A stretch of DNA of 64,000 bases from assembly GCF_030503875.2 (NCBI RefSeq), contig NZ_CP129968.2, positions 3,312,001-3,376,000 on the forward strand, read 5' to 3'. Positions within the stretch are counted from its first letter, which is position 1. The number at the start of each line of letters is the position of its first letter. The stretch is from Marivirga arenosa (GTDB lineage Bacteria; Bacteroidota; Bacteroidia; Cytophagales; Cyclobacteriaceae). This document shows positions 28,037 through 34,650 of the stretch, piece after piece. The notes under the pieces are model-generated. The model saw only the letters and a program-made list of their open reading frames with translations. It did no database searches and was not told the origin of the DNA. Position numbers and translations under genes: made by a program.

Positions 28037-28777
28037 ATGGAATCACTCTTGACTGTCGATGGGATTATTAGTCTTTTGTCTTTAACCCTGATGGAAATTG
28101 TTTTAGGTATAGATAATATCATATTTATATCCATTTTATGTAATCGACTTCCTGAAAGCCAACAGTCAAAGGCTCGAAATTTAGGGCTGTTTTTAGCCCT
28201 AATCATGCGAATTGGATTATTATTTGCCGTTACTTGGTTAGTTGGACTAAAAGAGCCATTTCTAAGTGTATTTGATTTCGATTTAACCTATAGAGATGCC
28301 ATCTTAATGGCAGGTGGTTTGTTTTTAATATACAAGAGTACAACCGAAATCCATGATAAACTTGAAGGAGAAGAAACTGATGTGAAAAATTCACAAAAGA
28401 TAAGTGGCTTTACATCCGTTATCTTTCAAATCATTTTACTTGATATCGTTTTTTCATTTGATTCTATTTTAACTGCAGTAGGATTGGTGGATAACGTTGC
28501 CATTATGATAGTAGCTGTAATTATCAGTATAGGTATTATGATATTAGCCGCAGGCAAAATTAGCAGTTTTGTAAATAAACATCCAACAGTTAAAATGCTA
28601 GCTTTATCCTTCTTACTGCTAATTGGGGTTTTATTATTAGTAGAAGGTTTCCATGTACATGTACCAAAAGGATATATATATTTCGCAATATTCTTCTCAT
28701 TATTGGTTGAAGTATTAAATATGAGGATGAGAAAAAAAACAAAACCAGTGCATCTAAAAGAAAAATTCAAGGAGTAA
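28037..28777 (+). CDS. TerC family integral membrane protein
   Basis: 246 residues with about seven membrane helices. It carries the hallmark acidic motifs LMEIVLGIDNIIFISI near the N-terminus and IVFSFDSILTAVG in the middle. TerC relatives include tellurite-resistance and Mn2+ exporter (Alx/MntP-like) proteins, and metal export at the inner membrane is the best guess. It ends with a basic tail. It is followed by the promoter of the thiamine locus and does not seem part of it. Confidence 0.85.
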   Translation: MESLLTVDGIISLLSLTLMEIVLGIDNIIFISILCNRLPESQQSKARNLGLFLALIMRIGLLFAVTWLVGLKEPFLSVFDFDLTYRDAILMAGGLFLIYKSTTEIHDKLEGEETDVKNSQKISGFTSVIFQIILLDIVFSFDSILTAVGLVDNVAIMIVAVIISIGIMILAAGKISSFVNKHPTVKMLALSFLLLIGVLLLVEGFHVHVPKGYIYFAIFFSLLVEVLNMRMRKKTKPVHLKEKFKE

Positions 28778-28783
28778 AAGAAT

Positions 28784-28814
28784 TTTGCCTAGTCGAAAGC
28801 TTATGTTACCTTAG
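28784..28814 (+). promoter_or_regulatory. Promoter of the pnuT operon
   Basis: TTTG at 28784-28787 and TACCTTAG at 28807-28814 are separated by 19 bases. This fits the Bacteroidota -33 TTTG / -7 TAnnTTTG pattern with one or two mismatches in the -7 box. It lies directly before the first TPP riboswitch, so the aptamer would be near the 5' end of the RNA. Confidence 0.55.
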
Positions 28815-28823
28815 CATAATTAT

Positions 28824-28897
28824 TAAGGGGTGCCACATGATAACGGGCTGAGAACATACCCTGGACCTGATCCTGATAATGCAGGCGTAGGAATTAA
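28824..28897 (+). promoter_or_regulatory. TPP riboswitch 1 (before pnuT)
   Basis: It shows the THI-element landmarks in order: AGGGGTGCC, CGGGCTGAGA, ATACCC, GGACCTGATCC, then GATAATGCAGGCGTAGGAA. TPP binding should shut down expression of the transporter. The aptamer ends about 10 bases before the pnuT ATG, which suggests control of translation initiation rather than a separate terminator. It is read in full through an open frame that begins at 28830, which is not a real N-terminus. Confidence 0.93.
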
Positions 28898-28907
28898 TGT
28901 TATTCAA

Positions 28908-29513
28908 ATGGAAATTTTACAAGAACTTTATAAAGGCCTACTCAATATGGGATGGCTTGAAGGACTAGGTGTATTCTTTGGAATACTCTATATCTATTTT
29001 GCTGCTAAAGAAATGATTTGGTGTTGGTATGCTAGTCTGATTAGTGTTAGCATTTATTTGATAATATGCTACCAAGTACAGCTTTACGCAGAAATGGGTT
29101 TAAATGTGTACTATTTAGGCGCCACAATATATGGATGGTGGCACTGGCGTAATCCTAGTGAAAATAAAAAAGAGTTACCGATCTCTAAAATGAAATTGAA
29201 GGAACATATTTTATTTATTTTAGTCGGATTTACATTTACCTTCGGATTAGGATATTTTCTTATTGAAAATACAGATGCTCAACTCCCCTATCTAGATTCA
29301 TTTACTACTGTTTTTGCAGTGCTTACCACTCTCTTAGTTACGCGTAAAGTCCTTGAAAACTGGATTTATTGGGTATTTATTGATACTGTAGCCATTTACA
29401 TTTATTTTCAGAGAGAATTATATTTGACTTCCTTATTAATGGCCGCATACGTAATTATAGCAGCAGTCGGCTATTTGAATTGGCTTAAGCTTTACCGTAC
29501 AAAATACGCATGA
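28908..29513 (+). CDS. pnuT: PnuT-type thiamine (precursor) transporter, PnuC superfamily
   Basis: 201 residues, seven predicted membrane helices. LGVFFGILYIYFAAKEMIWCW, in two pieces, and NVYYLGATIYGWWHWRNP (Trp77, 78 and 80) are typical of PnuC-family vitamin transporters. These move vitamins by facilitated diffusion and rely on phosphorylation inside the cell for trapping. The TPP riboswitch in front marks it as a thiamine (PnuT) member rather than a nicotinamide riboside (PnuC) one. The start is the ATG at 28908, because the reading frame upstream of it lies in the aptamer. Its stop overlaps the start of the kinase gene by four bases. Confidence 0.88.
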   Translation: MEILQELYKGLLNMGWLEGLGVFFGILYIYFAAKEMIWCWYASLISVSIYLIICYQVQLYAEMGLNVYYLGATIYGWWHWRNPSENKKELPISKMKLKEHILFILVGFTFTFGLGYFLIENTDAQLPYLDSFTTVFAVLTTLLVTRKVLENWIYWVFIDTVAIYIYFQRELYLTSLLMAAYVIIAAVGYLNWLKLYRTKYA

Positions 29514-30025
29514 AAAAAATTGCCATAATAGGACCAGAAAGTACCGGAAAAAGTACGATTACAGCCCAATTGGCTAGATATTACAATGAACCATTTGTAG
29601 AAGAATTTGGAAGGAAATACCTAGAAAAAACCAATGGAACGTATAATCGAGAGGATTTATTAGCCATTACTAAAGGTATGATTGAATCAGAAAAATCTCT
29701 TGAGAAAAAAGCAACTAATTTTCTTTTTTGTGATACTGATTTAATTATGATGAAGGTATGGTATGAGGTTAAATATGGTGAGTGTCATCCTTTGGTCTTA
29801 GACCGATTGGATTCTAAACCTTATGATCATTATTTATTATGCTATCCCGATCTCCCCTGGGAAGATGATCCCTTGAGAGAAAACCCTAATATGAGAGAAG
29901 AGCTTTTTGAAAGATATTTAAAAGAATTAAACCTCTATAATTTTCCTTTCAGTATTGTGAAAGGAAAGATTAACCGATTTATGATTGCTGCAAATGAAAT
30001 TGAAAGACTAAAGAATGATAATTAA
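29510..30025 (+). CDS. NadR-like P-loop kinase, candidate thiamine-trapping kinase
   Basis: 171 residues, cytoplasmic. Walker A is GPESTGKST (8-16), as in the ribosylnicotinamide kinase domain of NadR. FVEEFGRKYLE follows, then FCDTDLIMMKVW (Walker B-like Asp) and the LPWEDDPLRENP segment also typical of NadR-like kinases. There is no NMN adenylyltransferase domain and no DNA-binding domain. The gene overlaps pnuT (ATGA) and is under the same TPP riboswitch. Known PnuT systems are trapped by thiamine pyrophosphokinase, so this enzyme probably phosphorylates thiamine, HMP or a thiazole alcohol. Nicotinamide riboside remains the alternative if the riboswitch control is incidental. Confidence 0.85.
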   Translation: MKKIAIIGPESTGKSTITAQLARYYNEPFVEEFGRKYLEKTNGTYNREDLLAITKGMIESEKSLEKKATNFLFCDTDLIMMKVWYEVKYGECHPLVLDRLDSKPYDHYLLCYPDLPWEDDPLRENPNMREELFERYLKELNLYNFPFSIVKGKINRFMIAANEIERLKNDN

Positions 30026-30027
30026 TT

Positions 30028-30059
30028 TTTGCAAAGCATAAAAATCCGTCTTATCATTG
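30028..30059 (+). promoter_or_regulatory. Promoter of the THI5-like gene
   Basis: TTTG at 30028-30031 and TATCATTG at 30052-30059 are spaced by 20 bases, close to the Bacteroidota consensus, ten bases before the second TPP aptamer. This suggests the THI5-like gene has its own transcript. Confidence 0.55.
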
Positions 30060-30068
30060 CAGAATCAA

Positions 30069-30142
30069 TGAGGGGTGCCTTAATATAACGGGCTGAGAGT
30101 ATACCCTTGACCTGATCTCGGTAATTCGAGCGTAGGAATTTT
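30069..30142 (+). promoter_or_regulatory. TPP riboswitch 2 (before the THI5-like gene)
   Basis: AGGGGTGCC, CGGGCTGAGA, ATACCC, TGACCTGATC, then GGTAATTCGAGCGTAGGAA: a complete THI-element. The aptamer ends 20 bases before the ATG at 30162. An in-frame TTG at 30141 overlaps its 3' edge and is not taken as the start. Confidence 0.93.
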
Positions 30143-30161
30143 GAACTTTAATTTACATACA

Positions 30162-31082
30162 ATGGAACTAATAAGACTAGCATTGGATTGGACTCCTAAC
30201 ACCAATCATACTGGCTTTTTTGTAGCTCAAGCAAAAGGTTTTTATGATGAAATAGGAATAAAAGTGGAGATCCGTTCTCCGGAATTAGATAATTACTCCA
30301 AGACTCCTGCAAAATTAGTAGAGAAAAAATCAGTTGAACTTGGCATAGCTCCTTCAGAATCGGTTATTAGTTACCAAACTTTAAAAAACAAGCCAAATTT
30401 GACAGCCATAGCAGCCATCCTGCAAAAAGATGCAAGCGCGATTGTGAGCTTAGCTGAAGGAAGTATTCAAAATATTAAAGATTTGGATCAGCAAACCTAT
30501 GCTTCCTATAATGCTCGTTTTGAAGACCATATAGTAGAAGCAATGATTAGGAAAGATGGTGGCAAAGGGGAATTCAATAAAAGTACTCCTGATAAATTAG
30601 GGATCTGGGATACATTATTAGAGGGCAATGCGGATGCAACATGGGTATTCATGCCATGGGAAGGCATCCTAGCTAAAAATAACGGAATAAAATTAAATGA
30701 ATTCCAACTTGATGAATACAACATTCCTTATGGATACTCTCCTATTTTGATTGCCCATCCTGAAACTCTAAATGAAAAAGAAGAACCGATTTCTAAGTTT
30801 TTAAAAGCTTCTGCAAAAGGATTTCATTTTACCCAAAATTATCCTGAAGATGCTGTTAAAATACTAGCTGCTTCAGGAGAACAAGAAGAGCTGAAGGATG
30901 AAGAGTTTTTATTAGAAAGTCAAAAGGCAATCAATCCATATTATACCGATGAAAATGATGATTGGGGTCTAATGCAAGATAGTAGATGGAAAGATTTCGT
31001 AGATTGGATAAAATCTGAAAAACTAATTGATAAAGAAACTTTATCTAATCACAAATCATTATACACGAATAAGTACTTATAA
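30162..31082 (+). CDS. NMT1/THI5-like protein without signal peptide (thiamine precursor metabolism)
   Basis: 306 residues of the periplasmic-binding-protein type II fold. The opening RLALDWTPNTNHTGFFVAQ and KGFYDEIGIKVE are typical of ThiY, the pyrimidine-binding protein of the ThiXYZ transporter, and of the yeast HMP-P synthase THI5. Unlike ThiY there is no signal peptide or lipobox, and no ThiX or ThiZ gene is near. Unlike THI5 there is no cysteine at all, so the iron-binding CCCFC motif is missing, and by eye the THI5 active-site Lys/His positions are not conserved. The TPP riboswitch places it in thiamine metabolism. It could be a cytosolic precursor-binding protein or a novel enzyme. 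The start is the ATG at 30162. Confidence 0.8.
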   Translation: MELIRLALDWTPNTNHTGFFVAQAKGFYDEIGIKVEIRSPELDNYSKTPAKLVEKKSVELGIAPSESVISYQTLKNKPNLTAIAAILQKDASAIVSLAEGSIQNIKDLDQQTYASYNARFEDHIVEAMIRKDGGKGEFNKSTPDKLGIWDTLLEGNADATWVFMPWEGILAKNNGIKLNEFQLDEYNIPYGYSPILIAHPETLNEKEEPISKFLKASAKGFHFTQNYPEDAVKILAASGEQEELKDEEFLLESQKAINPYYTDENDDWGLMQDSRWKDFVDWIKSEKLIDKETLSNHKSLYTNKYL

Positions 31083-31099
31083 AATATTACTCTTTTGAG

Positions 31100-31174
31100 T
31101 AGGGGTGCCTTAATACAACGGGCTGAGATTATACCCAATGAACCTGATGCTGGTAATGCAGTCGCAGGGATTTT
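31100..31174 (+). promoter_or_regulatory. TPP riboswitch 3 (before the TonB receptor)
   Basis: AGGGGTGCC, CGGGCTGAGA, ATACCC, GAACCTGATG, GGTAATGCAGTCGCAGGGA: a third complete THI-element, 17 bases after the THI5-like gene. It lies 72 bases before the ATG of the receptor, a longer leader than the other two. The leader holds a GGAAG/CTTCC pairing but no obvious terminator. A short TACTC/GAGTA hairpin sits just before the aptamer. Confidence 0.93.
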
Positions 31175-31245
31175 GGTTAAGGAAAATGAAGGAAGTAGTT
31201 ACCCCGCTTCCGCAAGTTTCACTAACAATTATTTAATTTATCAAC

Positions 31246-33537
31246 ATGTTACATTTAGTCAAAAAAGCAATTTTAATTGCTACAGCAGTTTTATTGCCAA
31301 TGACAGTTTTTAGTCAGCACACAATCAAAGGAACTGTAAAATCGGAAGGAGAAAATGAACCTTTAATTGGAGCCAATGTGATGCTATTGCCAATCTCCAA
31401 AGGAAATACCACCAATCAAAATGGAAAATTTGAAATCAATAATATTCCAAATGGTGACTACACCCTGAAAGTTAGCTATGTCGGCTATAAAACGCTCGAA
31501 AAAAGCATAACTATTAATGAGAACAGAACTTTTGAATTTCAACTTGAATCAGATAAGGTATTATCTGAAGAAGTAGTAGTAAGTGCTATACGTGCAGACA
31601 AACTTGCTCCTATCACACAAACAACTTTAAATAAAAAGGAAATCAATTCTGTGTTTAATGGGCAAGATGGGGCTTTTGTATTAGAACAATTATCTCCTTC
31701 TATACAGGTAAACTCAGATGCTGGAACTCGTTTCACCAATTATGGCAGCATGCGATTAAGAGGAATTGACCAAAAAAGAATTAACATTACGCTAAACGGA
31801 GTACCTCTAAATGACATGATGGATCAGGGGGTTTTCTTTTCAAATTTCACGGATATCACTAGGAGCATGGAAAGTGTGCAAATACAAAGAGGAGTTGGAA
31901 CAAGTACTAATGGAACAGCCTCTTACGCAGGTTCCATCGGCTATGAATCCGAAAAAATTAATACCGAAAAACCTGAAGCAACCGTTACTTTACTAGCTGG
32001 GTCGTTCAATACTTGGCAAGGAACAGCAGAAGCTAAAACAGGATTGATGGATAATAACACAGCCTTTTATACAAGGTTAAGCAGAACTTACAGCGATGGG
32101 TACAGAGATCATTCCGGAAGTGATGCCTATTCTTTCTTTTTCAGCGGAGGATGGTTTGGTGAAAAGGATATTATAAAGATCAATGGATTCAACGGGAGAA
32201 CTAAAAATGATTTGGCTTACTCTCCTGTTCCTGAATCTTTAATTGAAGAAGATCCGAAAACGAATATTAATAACCCCAATGATATTGATGATTTTGGTCA
32301 ATCATTATTACAATTAGAGCACACTCATTTTTTCGGTGATAATTCCACATTAACTTCTTCTGCCTATTATGGTGGAGCTGGCGGAGATTTTCCCTTTACA
32401 TATAATGTGGATAGTGTTACTCTACAAAGCATTAACTACCCGCTTTTTAATGACCATTTTGGAGTAATGAGTTACTTCAATCAAAAATTCACAGATTTTG
32501 AATGGACAACTGGTGTTCATGCTTATCGCTTTAAAAGGGAAAATATTGAGCAATTGGTACCTAATTTCAGTAATCCTTATTATCAAGACCAATCAACAAA
32601 AGACGAAATAAGTGGTTTTATAAAGGGAACTTACAGAATTGGAAAATTTAGCCTTTTGGCAGATGTACAAGCTCGTTATGTCACCCTGGAAATGATTCCT
32701 GACACTGATTTTCTAGGGGAAAATAGAAGCATTCCTACTTACGACTGGACTTTTATCAATCCTAAAATAGGTGTTACCTATGAAATTAATAGCACTTTAA
32801 ATACTTATGCATCATTTGGTCGTTCAGGCAGAGAACCTACAAGAAGTAATTACTTAGGCGACACTCAGATAAATGAAGGAAATATTGACAGTTTACAAAA
32901 TCAGGGCTTTGTGAAACCAGAATTTGTAAATGATTTTGAAGCTGGGATTCGTTACAATACGCAAACAGCGAAATTCAATTTCAATGCCTTTTATATGGAT
33001 TTTGAAAACGAAATTGCTCCAATTGGTGAATTCATCCCTCAATATTTTATCCAACTTTATGAAAACCAAGCAGCTTCCTTCAGAAGAGGAGTTGAGTTCG
33101 ATTGGCAATTCATACCGTTGGAAAACTTTATATTTTCAGGTAATGCTACTTATATGCAAAGTATCATCAGTGAATATCGACCAGAGGGCAGCAATGAAGT
33201 TTTTGAAGATATCAAAACACCTTATAGTCCAGAATATTTTGTGAATGCCCAAATTCAATATCAACCCATTGAACAATTTGGTTTAAGCTTTCACACTAGA
33301 TTTGTGGGAATGAGTTTTAGTGAATTAACCAATAACGAGAATTTTGTGCTACCGAGCTATTCAGTCGCAAATGTAAAGTTGTTTTCTAATTTATCTGAAA
33401 ACTATCGGGTAGAATTAGAACTCAATAATATTTTTAGTGAACAATATTATACGGACGGTGCTCCAGTTGGAAATGAAATGGGATTCTTTGTTCAAGCTCC
33501 TGCACATTTTTATGCAACTTTCATTGCCAAGTTCTAA
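31246..33537 (+). CDS. TonB-dependent outer-membrane receptor for thiamine or a derivative
   Basis: 763 residues. A signal peptide (1-23, ending VFSQ) is followed by a carboxypeptidase-regulatory-like domain (about 25-105, GTVKSEGENEPLIGANV, with NGDYTLKVSYVGY). The plug domain has RLRGIDQKRINITLNGVPLN and VQIQRGVG. A beta-barrel ends in a C-terminal Phe, as needed for outer-membrane insertion. No SusD partner is present. Control by a TPP riboswitch strongly suggests that the ligand is thiamine, TPP or a breakdown product, taken up with TonB energy. It completes an outer-membrane to cytoplasm uptake path with PnuT. Confidence 0.9.
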   Translation: MLHLVKKAILIATAVLLPMTVFSQHTIKGTVKSEGENEPLIGANVMLLPISKGNTTNQNGKFEINNIPNGDYTLKVSYVGYKTLEKSITINENRTFEFQLESDKVLSEEVVVSAIRADKLAPITQTTLNKKEINSVFNGQDGAFVLEQLSPSIQVNSDAGTRFTNYGSMRLRGIDQKRINITLNGVPLNDMMDQGVFFSNFTDITRSMESVQIQRGVGTSTNGTASYAGSIGYESEKINTEKPEATVTLLAGSFNTWQGTAEAKTGLMDNNTAFYTRLSRTYSDGYRDHSGSDAYSFFFSGGWFGEKDIIKINGFNGRTKNDLAYSPVPESLIEEDPKTNINNPNDIDDFGQSLLQLEHTHFFGDNSTLTSSAYYGGAGGDFPFTYNVDSVTLQSINYPLFNDHFGVMSYFNQKFTDFEWTTGVHAYRFKRENIEQLVPNFSNPYYQDQSTKDEISGFIKGTYRIGKFSLLADVQARYVTLEMIPDTDFLGENRSIPTYDWTFINPKIGVTYEINSTLNTYASFGRSGREPTRSNYLGDTQINEGNIDSLQNQGFVKPEFVNDFEAGIRYNTQTAKFNFNAFYMDFENEIAPIGEFIPQYFIQLYENQAASFRRGVEFDWQFIPLENFIFSGNATYMQSIISEYRPEGSNEVFEDIKTPYSPEYFVNAQIQYQPIEQFGLSFHTRFVGMSFSELTNNENFVLPSYSVANVKLFSNLSENYRVELELNNIFSEQYYTDGAPVGNEMGFFVQAPAHFYATFIAKF

Positions 33538-33594: not shown

Positions 33595-34650
33595 ATGCAA
33601 AATAAAAAATTCATTCCTTTCTATGACATTCGAAAATATCCAGATGATGTATTAGTAGTAGATGCTCATCATCCTGAAGCTTTTGATTTATCGCATTGGA
33701 GAGGTGCGGCTGTTCCTGATAATTGTGAAGCCGATACCAGTACGGAAGTAGTTCTTAAAGCCATTAAAAATAATTTAGCTGAACTTAGTAGAACCTATGT
33801 TACTAACAACCATTATGATATTGATGGATTTTTAGGCGTATGGGCTCTATTTAATCCTGAAATTGCAATTCAGCGATATGACTTATTAGTTGAAATGGCT
33901 CAAATAGGAGATTTCAGAGAAATAAACTTTAAAAACCCTAATTGGCAAAAAGCTCTAAAACTTGTTTGTTGGCTGAATGAGGAAGAAGCCCAATTGTTCT
34001 ACCCTCCTTTTGGAGCTCCAGAAATTGCAGAAAAAGAAATGGAAGCCTCAGTCCCTAAATATTTGCATTTCCTTGAAGCATTTACTGAACAAATAAATTT
34101 AGTAATAGATGAAATACCTAGTACTGAAGAATATGAGATAGTATCTGAACATCTAAACAAAAAAATAAATAAAGAAACACTCTCTGATATTAGATTGCAT
34201 ATAGTTCAGGCTGAACAACCGCTTCATTATTATGCCTTGTATAGCGAAAGTTCTTCCTCAGATATTGTAATGAGTATTTACTCTGATAATAGATATGAAT
34301 TAGAGTTCAAATATACTACCTGGGTAAACACTACGAGAATGCATTATCCTAGAATTGGCTTAGAAAAGCTATGCGATCAACTGAATGCAGTTGAAACAAG
34401 CGGTAAAAAATGGGAAGCTGAGCATTTTACAGATACAGCCCCTATTCTTAGACTTAAGGGTAAAAAATTAAGTAAGAAAGAGAGATTTCAAAGTCCTTGC
34501 TTTAGGCCTATCTATTCGTCAAGTATCAAGGCAGATGAGTTTAAAAATATATGCATTGAATATTTCCAACAATACTATAAAGGCTTAGAAAAAGGAGAAA
34601 CACTAGATTGGAAAGAAGTAAGAGTAATCAATCGAGAACTATTTGAATAA
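33595..34650 (+). CDS. Unknown protein with a DHH-phosphoesterase-like motif
   Basis: 351 residues, soluble, no signal peptide. I do not recognise it firmly; it may be a DUF6687-type protein. The segment TNNHYDIDGFLGVWALFNP (about 65-85) resembles motif I of the DHH phosphoesterase superfamily (HxDxDGxxS), and the early VVDAHHPEAFDLSHW could be a second metal-binding block. The usual DHH triplet is not obvious, so hydrolase activity is speculative. The rest is mixed alpha/beta with a run of acidic helices. It begins 15 bases after the receptor terminator, ends at a bidirectional terminator, and appears to be a single-gene unit. Confidence 0.6.
   Translation: MQNKKFIPFYDIRKYPDDVLVVDAHHPEAFDLSHWRGAAVPDNCEADTSTEVVLKAIKNNLAELSRTYVTNNHYDIDGFLGVWALFNPEIAIQRYDLLVEMAQIGDFREINFKNPNWQKALKLVCWLNEEEAQLFYPPFGAPEIAEKEMEASVPKYLHFLEAFTEQINLVIDEIPSTEEYEIVSEHLNKKINKETLSDIRLHIVQAEQPLHYYALYSESSSSDIVMSIYSDNRYELEFKYTTWVNTTRMHYPRIGLEKLCDQLNAVETSGKKWEAEHFTDTAPILRLKGKKLSKKERFQSPCFRPIYSSSIKADEFKNICIEYFQQYYKGLEKGETLDWKEVRVINRELFE

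Follow-up and report, generated by a model that had tools for sequence, protein, structure and literature searches.

In the passages cited here, thiamine (vitamin B1) uptake in Bacteroides is described as involving OMthi, pnuT and tnr3, the last called a thiamine pyrophosphorylase, with thiamine pyrophosphate (TPP) riboswitches (PMC5613172). We analysed a 64,000-nucleotide stretch of the Marivirga arenosa genome (contig NZ_CP129968.2, positions 3,312,001–3,376,000), referred to as the window, and focused on its positions 28,784–33,537. As far as those passages portray the Bacteroides system, the locus is alike in having a TonB receptor, PnuT and a (here predicted) thiamine-phosphorylating enzyme under TPP riboswitches; it differs in carrying a NadR-family kinase in the place of tnr3, plus a protein of the NMT1/THI5 fold (NMT1-fold protein hereafter), and, if our assignment is right, in using a two-step route through ThiL. 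Judged from sequence comparisons, the locus is very probably the thiamine salvage route of an apparent thiamine non-maker, and its kinase a thiamine kinase built on the NadR kinase fold, a non-homologous replacement of thiamine pyrophosphokinase (TPK).

Such an enzyme would fill a place left vacant in a published survey. In the survey passage cited here, draft genomes of Flavobacteriales (8) and Cytophagales (3) carry ThiL and the omr1 receptor without the key biosynthetic enzymes, and salvage was inferred; the passage names no enzyme that makes the monophosphate from thiamine in those genomes, and the pathway legend lists thiK generally (PMC12236431). According to the cited part of another study, B1-gene expression of Baltic Bacteroidetes was dominated by omr1 and pnuC (PMC12442306). 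A NadR-family thiamine kinase, if true, closes this monophosphate gap in genomes that salvage through ThiL. We found no earlier proposal of one in the titles and abstract openings of the searched literature, outside which most subscription papers lie, and it would surprise a specialist.

The locus comprises the following features, in window coordinates.

28816–28911, + strand: TPP riboswitch 1 (RF00059, 59.2 bits; gathering score 54.3), before pnuT–kinase and extending to the pnuT start codon
28908–29513, + strand: PnuC-family transporter "PnuT", 201 aa (PF04973, E 5.5e-55; PDB relative 4qtn, PnuC; ATG at 28908 read from the sequence)
29510–30025, + strand: NadR-family kinase, 171 aa, predicted thiamine kinase (PF13521; kinase part of NadR models)
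30061–30155, + strand: TPP riboswitch 2 (RF00059, 62.0 bits), before the NMT1-fold gene
30162–31082, + strand: NMT1/THI5-fold protein, 306 aa, predicted cytosolic thiamine-binding protein (PF09084; no signal peptide)
31091–31187, + strand: TPP riboswitch 3 (RF00059, 60.4 bits), before the TonB receptor gene
31246–33537, + strand: TonB-dependent outer-membrane receptor, 763 aa (PF00593 barrel, PF07715 plug, PF13715)

The original prediction, made from the DNA sequence alone, had placed three complete TPP riboswitches before pnuT plus kinase, the NMT1/THI5-like gene and the TonB receptor gene. This was borne out: all three aptamers match RF00059 over its full length (model positions 1–105 of 105) above the gathering score, and a whole-genome search returned no fourth, the genome total being these three. 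The kinase gene overlaps pnuT by 4 nt, and 58 bases separate aptamer 3 from the receptor gene, whose product carries both the plug and the barrel domain. In PnuT, the PF04973 profile was covered over positions 2–175 of 175 (in a near-start translation from 28911). Nicotinamide riboside is the substrate for which PnuC-family transporters are chiefly known. Context, namely the TPP aptamer that reaches the pnuT start codon, points to thiamine as the probable substrate here.

The pathway genes of the host frame the kinase's predicted role. In the host genome (listed completeness 99.95%), neither ThiC nor TPK (PF04263) gave a match, and no ThiE was found above cut-off, the one partial match scoring 22.3 bits against a cut-off of 27. 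ThiL, however, is present (E 2.3e-98). ThiL acts on thiamine monophosphate; as the host has no ThiE above cut-off to make this compound, it must come either from phosphorylation of thiamine or from import as such. Among the host's TPP riboswitches stands a kinase of the NadR type, one copy of which was found in the genome.

Gene families, riboswitches, presence and absence of pathway genes, co-occurrence and synteny were computed; substrate, product, transport direction and regulation we infer. In the route that we propose, thiamine would cross the outer membrane through the TonB receptor and equilibrate across the inner membrane through PnuT. The kinase would then phosphorylate its hydroxyethyl group, trapping the vitamin as thiamine monophosphate, which ThiL, encoded elsewhere in the genome, would convert to TPP; TPP would in turn shut the three units through their riboswitches, and the NMT1-fold protein would probably serve as a cytosolic thiamine binder, be it buffer or carrier. 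The original prediction had suggested a kinase of the NadR type, standing in for TPK, as the thiamine-trapping enzyme. This is supported by the host's pathway gap and by two genome samples in which it is the genomes lacking ThiE and TPK that tend to carry the kinase; as a refinement, the likely product of the kinase is thiamine monophosphate, passed on to ThiL. The same reaction, thiamine to thiamine monophosphate feeding ThiL, is that of ThiK in enterobacteria, if the prediction holds. The fold of ThiK is that of choline/aminoglycoside kinases and has no relation to that of NadR.

The first sample consisted of 148 genomes of the host's order, searched with a profile built from 26 kinases. Genomes were counted as kinase-positive when a match at E ≤1e-8 lay in a frame shorter than 300 aa, with two overlong frames added and G142 removed as NadR-like. 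ThiE was counted over its cut-off (65 genomes) and ThiL at E 0.001 (139/148 genomes; 133 over its cut-off). As a discriminator ThiL was dropped, being near-universal at that threshold (194/198 in a second sample). Among genomes with ThiL, the kinase occurs in 65 of the 70 that have neither ThiE nor TPK, compared with 33 of the 69 that have one or the other (Fisher 2.6e-9). The latter figure becomes 31/69 on reassigning G045 and G114, two TPK genomes counted as kinase-positive whose copies group with NadR. Without ThiL, the kinase was found in one genome out of nine. Dividing the order by thiC and TPK, with nine genomes of family f21 left out, gave 83/89 versus 16/50 (Fisher 2e-14), and the same comparison made within families gave a Mantel-Haenszel (Cochran–Mantel–Haenszel, CMH) p of 1.8e-5.

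The class replicate, 191 further genomes outside the order, gave a similarly divided distribution. Short kinases are present in 86 of 155 genomes without TPK and in none of the 36 with it. For ThiE, tested in 178 genomes (inferred to be six order genomes plus G148–G319) and counted only at E <1e-24, 172 genomes were used, and the kinase was found in 73 of the 80 with neither ThiE nor TPK versus 8 of the 92 with either (Fisher 1e-30). Because the genomes are related, plain Fisher values overstate the certainty, and the within-family tests are safer; in the class this test gave p 3e-5 (CMH), with no family pointing the other way. Indeed, in families f23, f33, f41, f51, f56, f58, f65 and f66 the kinase occurs in every tested genome without ThiE and TPK and in none with either. 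Many Bacteroidota in both samples lack ThiC, ThiE and TPK, and the counts suggest that many of these use the kinase to supply the first step of B1 phosphorylation.

Gene neighbourhoods provide a second line of evidence. Stretches reaching at most 5 kb to each side were fetched for 100 order kinase matches (three of which proved to be NadR-type), 40 class and 20 NadR-type matches, and were searched at E 0.05 with a TPP riboswitch model built from 21 aptamers. A riboswitch was detected in 29/100 order and 12/40 class stretches; sorted by protein type, it lies within 5 kb of 41/135 kinases but only 1/23 bifunctional NadRs (p 0.009). By the terms of the original prediction, a general lack of linkage between the kinase's orthologues and TPP riboswitches would tell against it, and this applies in part, only those 41 of 135 loci being linked. 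The co-occurrence evidence is independent of riboswitch linkage. In all 29 riboswitch-linked order loci the riboswitch is downstream of the kinase (same strand in 27). Of these loci, 27 also have a TonB-receptor match on the strand that carries the riboswitch, and 28 have a pnuT-like match, so that the usual order is pnuT, kinase, riboswitch, receptor. A riboswitch before pnuT, as predicted, is correct for the window, but the usual loci have it downstream of the kinase, as a rule before the TonB receptor gene; apart from the window, the only loci found with an aptamer preceding pnuT were L004, L005 and, as a weak match, L207. At 48/97 order and 33/39 class loci, the kinase gene has a pnuT-like neighbour no more than 700 bases away, and the corresponding figure for NadRs is 12/23. 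Around eight order TPK loci (8 of the 11 TPK matches), about 1.5 kb of flank held no TPP riboswitch and no pnuT-like, TonB-receptor or kinase match; thus, a simple same-place swap of TPK for the kinase was not found.

Several facts weigh against our interpretation. Another enzyme could supply the monophosphate, ThiK-type kinases and YjbQ lying outside the host genome searches. The kinase is retained by 33/69 order genomes that have ThiE or TPK, though salvage is useful to prototrophs too. Conversely, the gap occurs without the kinase in five order genomes (G099, G116, G120, G147 and the 63% complete G137) and seven class genomes. In one of these seven, G304 (L174), kinase and GNAT acetyltransferase domains share a single frame of 349 aa, and a pnuT-like gene lies upstream. 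Fused kinase domains are also carried by 3 of the 36 class TPK genomes (G210, G245 and G335), and counting them changes the Fisher value to 1.5e-7. If 24 weak TenI-like matches are taken as ThiE, the class contrast weakens to 51/56 versus 30/116 (Fisher 9e-17); weak PF02581 matches had been left uncounted in view of three TenI-like proteins encoded close to the kinase gene, whose scores of 27–44 bits fall far short of the ThiE cut-off of 145. For about 70% of the examined kinases, furthermore, the surrounding 5 kb showed no TPP riboswitch, and a PnuC-family neighbour is common to NadRs, so adjacency alone cannot separate thiamine from nicotinamide riboside.

The kinase itself matches PF13521 (PF13238 falls below cut-off), and its P-loop kinase domain is homologous to the C-terminal half of NadR. 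With the ribosylnicotinamide kinase domain of NadR (1lw7, 6gyf, 8x7f) it has in common the fold, the P-loop and residues Glu32, Arg35, Asp75, Asp120 and Arg123, but it differs at Pro126, Trp117 and position 121 and has no adenylyltransferase domain. It is not a bifunctional NadR (171 aa; TIGR01526 103.6 bits against a cut-off of 341), nor does it match the TPK catalytic domain PF04263. The short kinases form a branch largely separate from NadR, the best split misplacing 6 of 159 sequences (support 0.85). Such proteins are currently named 'NadR type nicotinamide-nucleotide adenylyltransferase'; a thiamine kinase function, if true, would correct these names, provide a marker gene for intact B1 salvage, and be a case of one kinase fold, along with its partner transporter of the PnuC type, shifting between two vitamins.

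Given the sequence and fold of the NadR kinase domain, and given bifunctional NadR genes that stand with pnuC, several also with a TonB receptor, in the same order, the kinase might be an ordinary nicotinamide riboside kinase paired with PnuC for NAD salvage, its TPP riboswitch setting being incidental. We regard this as unlikely, since an enzyme of NAD metabolism should be distributed independently of ThiE and TPK, whereas 73/80 versus 8/92 class genomes, and 0/36 TPK genomes, were observed. In addition, the kinase lacks the adenylyltransferase half, and riboswitches favour kinases over NadRs (41/135 versus 1/23), with the window aptamer standing directly before pnuT–kinase. The kinase's place among TPP-controlled genes would also suit an enzyme whose substrate is a thiamine precursor, hydroxymethylpyrimidine (HMP) or hydroxyethylthiazole, instead of thiamine itself, as would the TenI/ThiE-superfamily gene found nearby in at least 16 class genomes. 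Such precursors, however, would have to be coupled, and the host has no ThiE above cut-off to do so; 65 order and 73 class genomes likewise have the kinase without ThiE and TPK, making action on precursors hard to credit. The absence of short kinases from all 36 class TPK genomes would also fit a pyrophosphokinase that takes thiamine to TPP in one step. Against this, ThiL is retained in 139/148 order genomes including the host, and NadR and thymidylate kinase relatives transfer one phosphate, which leaves a one-step enzyme very unlikely. A thiamine kinase that yields the monophosphate is the assignment that we retain.

A cytosolic THI5-like protein had also been predicted. The NMT1 fold and the missing signal peptide were upheld: its ATG at 30162 lies six bases after aptamer 2, which leaves no room for a signal peptide, its first strand occupies residues 2–7, and no export signal was seen by inspection. 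Judged in the same way, relatives show no signal-like start in 34 of 35 alignment rows (one row is cut at its start) and in 17 of 19 loci (two frames are extended upstream). The likeness to THI5 fared less well. Lys62 and His66 are, in the part of the report cited, active-site residues of the THI5 HMP phosphate (HMP-P) synthase (PMC10848271). In the window protein, Ala63 and Ser67 align with Lys62 and His66 of yeast THI5, and Ala63 and Ser67, together with Glu66, hardly vary across the 35-row alignment. The protein is closest to a thiamin-bound binding protein, ahead of THI5, and has 31% identity to the thiamine-binding protein 4nmy of C. difficile, from which it differs in having no signal peptide or ABC neighbour, no ABC protein partner being present among the six neighbours scanned around the locus. 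A THI5-type HMP-P synthase, although of the same fold, is therefore highly improbable: the two catalytic residues are replaced, the binding protein is the closer relative, and the host has no ThiE above cut-off to use HMP-P. Its probable role is instead the binding of cytosolic thiamine, as buffer or carrier, by the NMT1-fold protein kept there.

The NMT1-fold protein was found in 31/148 order genomes at E 1e-20, and in 1/11 of the window's family. No TPP riboswitch was near its gene in any of 19 loci with about 1.5 kb of flank; in G006, G043 and G062 a riboswitch is 2.3–2.5 kb away from the gene, and in G055 pnuT is about 2.7 kb away. These scattered distances and empty flanks indicate that its link to thiamine is partial outside Marivirga, and it was set aside as a marker of thiamine loci. 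A signal-less NMT1-fold family is common to Bacteroidota and haloarchaea, at about 50% identity and with many invariant residues, including Arg119, Glu121, Asp122 and Trp166; horizontal transfer perhaps explains this sharing, and the family perhaps has an enzymatic role.

More broadly, it is conceivable, though we hold it doubtful, that B1-auxotrophic Bacteroidota in general have come to rely on the NadR kinase fold for their thiamine kinase, to the near exclusion of TPK, and that some lineages add a cytosolic partner with a periplasmic-binding-protein fold but no export signal, which would take hold of thiamine at PnuT and pass it to the kinase, as a retention system for a vitamin that enters by facilitated diffusion alone.

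Further arrangements were noted around kinases and NadRs. In the class genomes mentioned above, at least 16, the PF02581 (TenI/ThiE-superfamily) gene is no further than 5 kb from the kinase, and on the same strand in 13 among the matches listed; in L179, L180, L195 and others (11 class genomes, by spacing) it is directly upstream of pnuT–kinase on the same strand, and the proteins of L179 and L195 score far below the ThiE cut-off. In G116 (L227, 1643–5522), a TPP riboswitch is followed in succession by genes for a TonB receptor, a PnuC-type transporter and a bifunctional NadR. This genome has ThiL but lacks ThiE, TPK and a single-domain kinase, and the arrangement may represent an intermediate stage, with thiamine served by NadR itself. 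A TonB-receptor match, a PnuC-type gene and a bifunctional NadR occur together, with no TPP riboswitch, in L104, L105, L173, L216, L220–L222 and L228, apparently the counterpart for nicotinamide riboside uptake across the outer membrane. The fused kinase frames of G210, G245 and G335 (L170, L171 and L172) measure about 735 aa, the fusion to DUF4301 (PF14134, 669 bits) having been tested in G210/L170. Each of the three has a pnuT-like match upstream, and two of them (L170 and L171) also have a TPP riboswitch and a TonB-receptor match downstream.

A search for related loci with a single kinase sequence as query reached two Marivirga loci only; an alignment query would reach further. The three-aptamer layout is repeated in M. 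arenosa L004 and, among the loci examined, is confined to it and the window. M. aurantiaca L005 has a single aptamer, before pnuT–kinase, and the examined stretch downstream holds a long opposite-strand frame instead of an NMT1 or receptor gene. The window locus is flanked by genes for a TerC-family membrane protein (28037–28777) and a DUF6687 protein (33595–34650), and a close relative of the TerC protein is also encoded upstream of pnuT in L005. Finally, residue 57 of the window kinase (29678–29680) is Met, as in M. arenosa P0002 and M. tractuosa P0006, and Gln in 99% of the compared kinases.

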